NCBI GenBank assembly: GCA_913053235.1
Contig: CAJXFT010000016.1
Location: 1 to 32,273 of the forward strand
Reading direction: 5' to 3'
Source of the DNA: an uncultured Alphaproteobacteria bacterium
Lineage (GTDB): Bacteria > Pseudomonadota > Alphaproteobacteria > UBA828
DNA: 32,273 nucleotides
Of the stretch, positions 6,934-27,471 are shown piece by piece. A program made the translations under genes and the position numbers. Below the pieces are notes generated by a model, which saw nothing but the letters and a program-made list of their open reading frames with translations, did no database searches and was not told the origin of the DNA. Positions within the stretch are counted from its first letter, which is position 1, and each line of letters starts with the position of its first letter.

Positions 6934-7358
<425 letters not shown>

Positions 7359-24507: not shown

Positions 24508-26361
24508 ATGAGCATCGATTTTGCACCGCAGCAATGGGAAGAGACCAAACCCCGCATTACCGTTATCGGCGTCGGCGGCGCCGGCGGCAACGCCGTCAAC
24601 AACATGATCAATGGCGGATTGGAGGGTGTCGAATTCGTTGTCGCCAACACCGATTCGCAATCGCTTCAGCAATCCCTGTCGGAACAACGCATCCAACTTG
24701 GCGTCAATGTCACGCACGGCCTGGGCGCCGGCGCGCGGCCCGATATCGGGCGCGTCGCGGCCGAGGAGGCGCTCGACGATATTCAACAATATCTCGAAGC
24801 CAACAATATGGTGTTCATCGCCGCCGGCATGGGCGGCGGCACCGGCACCGGCGCCGCGCCGATCATCGCCCGCGCGGCGCGCGAGCAAGGCATCCTCACC
24901 GTCGGCGTGGTCACCAAGCCGTTCCAGTTCGAAGGCGTTCAGCGCATGCGCCTCGCCGAGGAGGGGCTGCGCGAGTTGCAGCAATATGTCGATACGCTGA
25001 TCGTCATCCCCAATCAAAACCTGTTCCGTGTCGCCAACGAGCACACCACCTTCGCGGCCGCCTTCAATCTCGCCGATGAAGTGCTCCATGCCGGCGTGCG
25101 CGGCGTCACCGATCTGATGGTGAGCCCCGGCCTGATCAATTTGGATTTCGCCGATATCCGCACCGTGATGGGCGAGATGGGCAAGGCGATGATGGGCACC
25201 GGCGAAGCGGAAGGCGAAAACCGCGCCATCGAGGCGGCCGAGGCGGCGATCAACAATCCGCTCCTCGACAATGCCTCCATCGAAGGCGCGCGCGGCGTCC
25301 TCATCAACGTGACCGGCGGCTCCGACGTCACCCTGATGGAGGTCGACGAAGCGGCCACGCGCATCTGCCAGGAAGTCGACACCGACGCCAACATCATCTT
25401 CGGCACCTCGATGTCGAGCGATCTTGAAGGGCAAATGCGGGTCGCCGTAATCGCCACCGGCATCGACGCCGATTTGGCGCTCGAGCCGGTGCCGGTGCCC
25501 TCGGACAAGGTGCATGTCCTCGGTATCAGCAACCGCAAGGGCGGCGACCGGCCGGCCTCGGGCGCCATGGGTGCGGCCGAACAAAGCGCGCCGGAAGCGA
25601 TGGTTGGCGAAACCGAAACGCCGCACCAGGATGGCGCGGCCGATATCGCCGCCGAGGCGGATGATGGCGGATCGGCCGATGCCGGCACCGCCGTCGCGCT
25701 CAACAGCGTCGAGCAGAGTTTCGAGAATGTCGAAGCGCCGGCGCAGCCGGGCGAAGCCGGGCAAGCCCCGGAACCGGTCCTGGTCGAAAATTCGCCGCCT
25801 GTGCGCAAGACCGTGTCGGCATCTACGTCGGGCGGTGTGCGGGCCAATGTCGTCACCCGCAAGGAACGGCCGGAAGCGGTCGCGCCGAGCCCCGTCGAGC
25901 CCACTACCGAGGCCAAGCCGGGCAACGCCGAAGTGCCGCCCGAAACCGCGCCCGCAGCGCCGGCCAAGGCCGATACCGTCAGCATCGGTTTCATCGCGTC
26001 ACCTCCCGTGACGCCGGGCCAGGAATCTGCGGCCGGGCTTGAGGAGACGGCCGATCCGTTCCGCGTGGCGAGCATGGAAAATGCCGGCAACAGCGGCAAG
26101 AAGCGCGGGCCGTCGCTGTTCGAGCGCATGACCGGAAGCGGCAGGGCGCGGCGGGAAACGGCGGACAAAAAGCCGGCACGTGGCGAAACCGCGCGCCAGC
26201 GGACGGCGCCACCGGCGGCGCAAAAACCGGCGCGCGAGGCCGCCGGCAAGGAACCGACCTTCGAAAACATTCCGCAAACCGCACAACCTATTGCGGATAT
26301 GAACTCGATAGAGGATGATCCGTTGGAGATTCCGGCTTTTCTACGGCGCCAAGCAAATTAG
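24508..26361 (+). CDS. ftsZ: Cell division GTPase FtsZ with long C-terminal linker
   Basis: FtsZ is the tubulin-like GTPase that forms the cytokinetic ring. The GTPase/polymerisation domain (about 14-320) has the [14 protein letters not shown] loop, the tubulin signature GGGTGTG at 109-115, and the T7 loop [11 protein letters not shown] needed for GTP hydrolysis. The protein is 617 residues, against about 383 in E. coli. The excess is an intrinsically disordered linker (about 320-600) rich in Ala, Pro and Glu, turning basic near its end ([15 protein letters not shown]). It ends with the conserved tail [11 protein letters not shown] that binds FtsA and other partners. Long linkers are usual in alphaproteobacteria. 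The start has GGAGG 5 bases upstream. Confidence 0.97.
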
Positions 26362-26403
26362 CCGCCAAAGCGCCCGAGAAACACGAGGAATTGGCCGTAA
26401 CAT

Positions 26404-26414
26404 TTTGTAACAAA
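26404..26414. repeat. Palindrome TTTGT-A-ACAAA after ftsZ
   Basis: A perfect 5+1+5 inverted repeat 42 bases after the ftsZ stop and immediately upstream of the candidate lpxC promoter; a possible binding site. Confidence 0.3.
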
Positions 26415-26421
26415 GAGTGAT

Positions 26422-26450
26422 TTGAGTGCTTCGGAGGGGGCTGCTACAAC
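26422..26450 (+). promoter_or_regulatory. Candidate lpxC promoter
   Basis: TTGAGT (26422-26427) and TACAAC (26445-26450) are 17 bp apart, each 4/6 to sigma70 consensus. The perfect stem-loop at 26428-26461 overlaps the spacer and -10 box. The match is moderate. Confidence 0.35.
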
Positions 26451-26461
26451 CCCTCCGAAGC
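26428..26461. repeat. Perfect 12-bp inverted repeat between ftsZ and lpxC
   Basis: GCTTCGGAGGGG (26428-26439) and CCCCTCCGAAGC (26450-26461) are exactly complementary with a 10-base loop. No T-run follows on either strand, so an intrinsic terminator is unlikely. It may be an operator or an mRNA structure separating ftsZ and lpxC expression. Confidence 0.6.
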
Positions 26462-26480
26462 GACTCGGAGTCGGTGATTC
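26462..26480. promoter_or_regulatory. Three GANTC sites upstream of lpxC
   Basis: GACTC (26462), GAGTC (26468) and GATTC (26476) fall within 19 bp; the first two form the palindrome CGACTCGGAGTCG. They lie 44-62 bases before the lpxC start. GANTC is the CcrM methylation target in alphaproteobacteria. Confidence 0.5.
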
Positions 26481-26523
26481 GCATATTATGCCAGCACCGC
26501 CGGAGTTGCTTAGCGGCCGTGGA

Positions 26524-27471
26524 ATGGAAAGTTCGGTTTTGATCAGACAAATGCAACGCACCTTGAAAGCGCCGATACACTGCACCGGCGCCGGCCTTCA
26601 TAGCAACGCCAAGGTATCGATGACCCTCGGTCCGGCGGCGCCCGGCACGGGCGTAGTGTTTCGCCGCACGGATTTGGCGACGGATGCCGGAATTGAGGCG
26701 CATCACGACAATATCGTCGATTCGCGGCTGTGTACGACGATCGGCAACGGCAACGGGTTGTCGGTTGGCACGATCGAACATTTAATGGCGGCGTTCGCCG
26801 GTTGCGGCGTCGATAATGCCATCGTCGAATTGACCGGCGCCGAGGTTCCGATCATGGACGGCAGTGCGCGCGCCTTCGTCTTCCTGATCGAATGCGCCGG
26901 CATCGTCGAGCAAAATGCGCCGCGCCGCGCCATCCAGGTGCTCAAGGACATCTCCGTCGGCAATGAAAATCGCTGGGCTTCCATTTCGCCGGCGCAAAAT
27001 TTCTCGCTGCATTGTGAAATTGTCTTCGACCATCACGCCATAGGCGCGCAATCGTTCGACTATGATTCGCGGCTGTCCTCGTTCGAGGATGAACTCAGCA
27101 GTGCGCGTACCTTCTGCCTCGCCGCCGATGTCGAGGAAATGCGCGCCGCCGGGCTGGCGCTGGGCGGCTCGCTCGACAACGCCGTGGTCATCGGTGAGCA
27201 CGGTTTGCTGAATGACGAGGGCCTGCGTTTCGAGACCGAATTTGCCCGCCACAAGGCGCTCGATCTGATCGGCGATCTCAGCCTCGCCGGGGCGCCGCTG
27301 TTGGCCCATGTCGAGAGCCATTGCGCCGGACATGCGATGAACCATCAATTGCTCGATGCGCTGCTCGACGACGGGACGGCGTGGTGCTGGACCGATACCG
27401 ACGCGGACGGCGCCGAGCGCATGGATGCGGCGGTGCAGGTGCGTCTGGCGGTGGCGGCGGCCAGCACCTAA
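26524..27471 (+). CDS. lpxC: UDP-3-O-acyl-GlcNAc deacetylase LpxC
   Basis: LpxC is the zinc deacetylase that commits precursor to lipid A. From ATG 26524 the protein has 315 residues, close to the usual 300-305. It shows the N-terminal QRTLKAPIHCTGAGLHSN, the zinc-site motif TIEHLMAAF, IMDGSARAF, HKALDLIGDLSLAG (second zinc His plus Asp) and HCAGHAMNHQLL with the catalytic His. The track's TTG at 26422 would add 34 residues that run across the 12-bp stem-loop, which is unlikely. ATG 26488 and ATG 26551 are other options, and none has a clear ribosome site. It follows ftsZ after 162 bases, as in many proteobacteria, but probably has its own promoter. Confidence 0.93.
   Translation: MESSVLIRQMQRTLKAPIHCTGAGLHSNAKVSMTLGPAAPGTGVVFRRTDLATDAGIEAHHDNIVDSRLCTTIGNGNGLSVGTIEHLMAAFAGCGVDNAIVELTGAEVPIMDGSARAFVFLIECAGIVEQNAPRRAIQVLKDISVGNENRWASISPAQNFSLHCEIVFDHHAIGAQSFDYDSRLSSFEDELSSARTFCLAADVEEMRAAGLALGGSLDNAVVIGEHGLLNDEGLRFETEFARHKALDLIGDLSLAGAPLLAHVESHCAGHAMNHQLLDALLDDGTAWCWTDTDADGAERMDAAVQVRLAVAAAST

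Follow-up and report, generated by a model that had tools for sequence, protein, structure and literature searches.

A conserved 28-bp element before lpxC in Alphaproteobacteria and a hairpin at the ftsZ 3' end that overlies the predicted lpxC promoter

Our results reveal a 28-bp sequence element that is kept before lpxC across much of the Alphaproteobacteria and that matches none of the CenR, ChvI, NtrX and CtrA motifs. It came to light in the window, i.e. the whole 32,273-nucleotide stretch of DNA from an uncultured alphaproteobacterium that was analysed here. The element lies between ftsZ and lpxC, upstream of a perfect stem-loop, and appears to be the main conserved regulatory sequence of this region, one that the first-pass annotation had not listed. 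The region is probably the lpxC promoter of Alphaproteobacteria, with a hairpin of the ftsZ 3' end, or a terminator hairpin, laid over its core.

The window contains a dcw-type cluster in which murC, murB, ddl, ftsQ, ftsA, ftsZ, lpxC, a gene for a BamD-type lipoprotein, recN (called from an SMC_N/RecN Pfam match and gene order) and ligA all lie on the plus strand (Table 1). The conserved element begins 35 nt past the ftsZ stop codon. The lpxC start codon is likely the TTG at 26539, because sequence inspection places the ATG at 26524 out of frame in a relative (G004). LpxC catalyses the committed step of lipid A synthesis, and its level in Escherichia coli is set through proteolysis by FtsH. 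Elsewhere in the window, an RNase P RNA of bacterial class A is found at 6935–7357 (Rfam, 288.6 bits).

Table 1. Coordinates of features at the ftsZ–lpxC locus of the window
Feature	Position	Strand	Remarks
ftsZ	24508..26361	+	Pfam Tubulin/FtsZ 3e-49, FtsZ_C 1e-36
lpxC promoter element (putative), GTAACA-N4-GTAACAAAGAGTGATTTG / GTAACA-N4-GTAACA-AA-NN-GTGATTTG	26397..26424	+	
Predicted -35 hexamer, TTGAGT	26422..26427	+	TTG ~98-99% conserved
Hairpin 5' arm, GCTTCGGAGGGG	26428..26439	+	pairs perfectly with the 3' arm; in the promoter spacer
Predicted -10 hexamer, TACAAC	26445..26450	+	in hairpin loop, except for the final base, which opens the 3' arm
Hairpin 3' arm, perfect reverse complement of GCTTCGGAGGGG	26450..26461	+	
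Palindrome CGACTCGGAGTCG, two GANTC sites	26461..26473	+	not conserved
TGATTCG	26475..26481	+	shared by most genus members and by part of the family
lpxC	26539..27471	+	Pfam LpxC 2e-103

When the 301-bp region was searched against relatives, the best conserved stretch began upstream of the stem. It consists of direct repeats at a phasing of 10 bp, with GTAACA at 26397 and 26407 and a weaker third copy, GTGATT, at 26417. The same arrangement is found over 109 loci (GTAACA at element positions 0 and 10, GTGATT at 20, then the TTG of the -35 hexamer), in which the 28 positions have an information content of 39.5 bits. Allowing two mismatches at most, the pattern GTAACANNNTGTAACAAANAGTGANTTG occurs in 59 of 289 class genomes with one copy each, and a reversed-pattern control gave no match in the same 289 genomes. 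To avoid selecting by pattern, we looked for LpxC itself in this class sample and read the upstream DNA of 53 loci from pattern-negative genomes. The element is present in 52 of these 53, a figure that is not representative of the whole class since the loci rank high on the list of LpxC matches. Three mismatches or fewer separate 34 of them from the pattern, and under a weight matrix 18 of the remaining 19 clearly exceed every one of 40 shuffles; the sole exception (L127, genome G109) keeps the element in part. Of 16 genomes that are mostly reduced and come chiefly from the end of that list, three carry a clear element, and at most fragments are left in G109, G172 and G228.

Besides being conserved across the class as a single copy, the element is associated with lpxC. 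In each of the 38 loci examined at the outset, this gene follows the element on the same strand; the 38 include L016, L021 and L022, where ftsZ could not be found ahead of the element. A scan of a genome collection returned 87 stretches, of which 80 were read; lpxC lies within 700 bp downstream in 78 of the 80, and the other two end before lpxC could appear. Named genera with the element include Azospirillum, Nitrospirillum, Skermanella, Pelagibius and Thalassobaculum, and the phylum sample of non-alphaproteobacterial Pseudomonadota gave 0 of 213.

The spacing between the element and the promoter is also fixed. The pair TTGAGT-N17-TACAAC, proposed as a promoter by the first-pass annotation, is indeed present (Table 1). 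A scan with the strict E. coli sigma-70 consensus did not score it as a promoter. Support for an lpxC promoter comes from conservation: the TA of the -10 hexamer lies 20 nt past the element in 86 of the 109 loci and one base further in 11. Judged from the -10 position, lpxC transcription would start at about 26456–26458, within the 3' arm of the hairpin. As a whole, the first-pass interpretation of the region is partly supported; the part that holds is a control region that would give lpxC a promoter of its own where the division-gene transcript ends. Loci L160–L166 (genus g6 of the same family) have a near-perfect 28-bp element and have lost the -10 TA and the hairpin (TTTGCCAGG), which suggests a shifted start site or a promoter whose strength depends on a bound factor in these loci. 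L013 and L015 contain a GC-rich stem followed by CTCTTTGT within ~60 nt past the element, just 3' of the predicted lpxC start; this stem would put a terminator-like hairpin in the lpxC leader and is a possible candidate attenuator.

The flawless 12-bp inverted repeat reported earlier at 26428–26461 was recovered at exactly these coordinates, with a 10-nt loop (GCTGCTACAA). It is the window's sole perfect 12-bp stem with a loop of 3–20 nt. Such a stem also arises in 7 of 30 shuffled windows; by itself it is therefore only mildly unusual, and its meaning had to come from relatives. The RNA fold at the locus outperforms shuffled sequences (z = -3.25 for 163 nt and z = -4.7 for the 50-nt region), and the stem is GC-rich and follows a gene end, that of ftsZ. 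Directly 3' of it, no T-tract is seen (one T in 9 nt).

We then compared the hairpin across 188 pooled loci, reduced to 157 by removal of near-duplicates. In the 50 nt 3' of the element, 56 of 157 loci fold below z = -2.5, compared with 5 of 148 downstream and 22 of 157 upstream controls (mean z of -1.76, -0.21 and -0.72, respectively). The TA of the -10 hexamer is unpaired in 47 of 57 strong hairpins. Several pair types occur at nearly every arm position, i.e. pairing is kept as the sequence varies; these counts lean towards structure because the pairs were taken from predicted folds, and the shuffle and control comparisons are less biased. The hairpin thus appears to be conserved as a structure and not as a sequence, and the check for compensating stem changes among relatives, which had been proposed earlier, found them. 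Strong hairpins are also linked to a close ftsZ stop: they are found in 49 of the 81 loci whose stop lies at 70 nt or less and in 8 of 76 others (p = 3e-11, which overstates certainty because related genomes are not independent). Counting against our preferred explanation, no hairpin, whether overlapping or upstream, is present in 25 of the 81 loci with a close ftsZ stop.

T accounts on average for 4.2 of the 10 nt that follow the stem, versus ~2.7 expected from a local T frequency of 0.27, with five or more T in 28 of 57 strong hairpins. At some loci (L093, L094, L086, L019 and L105) the hairpin looks like an ordinary intrinsic terminator that has the lpxC -10 hexamer in its loop. The window's own genus has kept the stem and lost the T-tract, so that intrinsic termination is doubtful in this genus; here, an additional factor may be required for termination, or the role of the stem may be to protect or process ftsZ mRNA. 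The absence of a T-run had been taken to argue against a terminator. The T-run is missing as described, but the conclusion does not follow: the hairpins of relatives are often T-tailed and their presence tracks a nearby ftsZ stop, which leaves a terminator origin possible for these homologous hairpins.

From these patterns we infer promoter activity, binding by an OmpR-family protein and a hairpin that terminates or protects ftsZ RNA. RNA polymerase would start lpxC from TTGAGT-N17-TACAAC, and a dimer or oligomer of an OmpR-family regulator on the phased GTAACA repeats, the last of which touches the -35 hexamer, would set promoter strength. Read-through RNA from ftsZ would span the whole inverted repeat and fold into the stem-loop, by which the ftsZ mRNA would be ended or protected. 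Transcripts of lpxC would start inside the 3' arm and could not form the stem-loop, so only ftsZ read-through RNA could. The first-pass annotation had suggested a control element that uncouples lipid A synthesis from division transcription, perhaps with methylation input; a region with its own lpxC promoter after the division genes agrees with our analysis, but the key sequence lies upstream of the stem and the case for methylation is weak. A bolder version, which we regard as rather unlikely, has one factor with a near single-gene target setting lipid A synthesis class-wide and, in addition, the overlapping hairpin letting ftsZ transcription hinder lpxC initiation (or the supercoiled palindrome extruding with the -10 hexamer in its loop). 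If true, this would tie division to outer-membrane synthesis.

The element looks like tandem 10-bp half-sites, and direct repeats at ~10-bp phasing, as in OmpR-family sites, are found across the 109 loci; this makes it a putative site for an OmpR-family response regulator. In 23 mostly reduced genomes, each response regulator with a Trans_reg_C domain was assigned a type from its best match among six reference proteins, which we take to be PhoB, ChvI, CtrA, CenR, OmpR and QseB. An OmpR-type regulator is present in 10 of 10 genomes with the element and 7 of 13 without (p = 0.02), and a CenR-type regulator in 8 of 10 and 2 of 13 (p = 0.003), with lineages that are not independent in either comparison. 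The element is absent from typed genomes having CtrA only or no such regulator. The reduced genomes G076, G197, G292, G152 and G253 lack the lpxC element, and CtrA is the only regulator of the Trans_reg_C family detected in them. Several reduced genomes have an OmpR-type gene and no element, which counts against an OmpR-family regulator. For the OmpR-type protein of the window's own genome, the NCBIfam OmpR model gives the highest score, one that stays under the cut-off of that model.

Elsewhere in its own genome, the double GTAACA repeat is not enriched (41 versus 123 for the reversed control), which is unusual for a response regulator with a regulon. Other copies of the double repeat (L040–L042) were considered as a regulon; they lie near unrelated genes and give no sign of one. 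The near-absence of further copies in this genome suggests that the regulon would be very small or that looser sites occur elsewhere. Published motifs of other regulators do not fit either: the CenR site TGA-N8-TGA (PMC9275681) is absent from the element consensus, the ChvI sites TTGC-N3-GCAA or GCC-N8-GCC (PMC9731502) and the NtrX site GCA-N9-TGC (PMC7240162) do not fit it, and the CtrA site TTAA-N7-TTAA (PMC4287350) has no match to the element.

The hairpin and the sites next to it could be read in other ways. If the inverted repeat were an operator, a dimeric repressor covering the -35/-10 spacer and the start would shut off lpxC. Its position over the core promoter is ideal for this and the arms are near-identical within the genus, but the stem sequence differs widely between lineages and yet stays paired, many loci that retain the promoter have no stem, and the dependence on a nearby ftsZ stop would be needless for an lpxC operator. 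We therefore consider a fixed operator improbable. A riboswitch-like RNA leader element of lpxC, in place of promoter DNA, agrees with the stable fold and is extremely unlikely: no Rfam family was found at the hairpin locus with either the gathering or a permissive threshold, and the 28 bp at fixed spacing to the -35 and -10 hexamers lie upstream of the predicted start, hence outside lpxC RNA.

Methylation control, in which CcrM would methylate the GANTC cluster and GcrA would adjust lpxC through the cell cycle, seems very improbable as well. GACTC at 26462, GAGTC at 26468 and GATTC at 26476 are all where they had been reported, in a window that is depleted in GANTC overall (81 versus 151 expected); ~0.7 pairs at 9-nt spacing are expected by chance per window. 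The three-site cluster is private to this genome, and class-wide GANTC stays at chance level from +60 to +140 (43 versus 42.6 expected). In its favour, GcrA is encoded in the genome, and TGATTCG fits YGAKTCG, which we take to be a GcrA-type motif. Most genus members retain this site, which lies ~20 nt past the predicted start; three genus genomes share a GATTC at +79 that falls within YGAKTCG; and between +75 and +95 YGAKTCG shows a slight excess over all loci (8 versus 1.5). The place of the site downstream of the predicted start speaks against methylation control. The shared YGAKTCG site and the encoded GcrA make a local methylation input possible in the genus, which would not be a general function of the region. 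Another tight GANTC array lies at 1624–1646 of the window, with three GATTC at exact 9-bp spacing (CCGATTCCACCGATTCCTATGATTC).

The 28-bp element points to shared transcriptional control of lpxC and is a clear lead to how Alphaproteobacteria control their outer membrane; its conservation makes lpxC control testable via the protein that binds it. The nested hairpin would be a compact way to end one gene's message within the next gene's promoter. Searches of an incomplete set of open-licence papers turned up no description of an lpxC promoter motif, of an ftsZ–lpxC terminator or of a terminator whose loop contains a promoter, so the 28-bp element and the nested arrangement appear to be without prior description there.

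A 2025 review describes NtrYX as lowering lpxC transcription in Rhodobacter sphaeroides and Caulobacter crescentus, and ChvGI as raising it in C. crescentus; beyond the well-studied species, how LpxC is controlled is only beginning to be worked out in detail, and its control in Alphaproteobacteria is unclear (PMC12444477). No ChIP site of R. sphaeroides NtrX lies upstream of lpxC (PMC7240162). CenKR, ChvGI and NtrYX (PMC9275681, PMC9731502, PMC7240162 and PMC12444477) resemble the proposed system as two-component envelope control in Alphaproteobacteria, but their published motifs differ from the lpxC element. The hairpin shares with intrinsic terminators a GC-rich stem just past an ORF stop and, in about half of the relatives' strong stems, a T-rich tail; it departs from them in having the next promoter's -10 hexamer in its loop and, in the window's genus, in lacking the T-tract.

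The sites of the OmpR/EnvZ system in E. coli are AC-N8-AC direct repeats. The lpxC element differs from them in its target and in occurring in full at one gene only, and the likeness, a lead to the putative regulator, consists in direct repeats of AAC-containing half-sites in 10-bp phase, upstream of a promoter, in a genome with an OmpR-type regulator.
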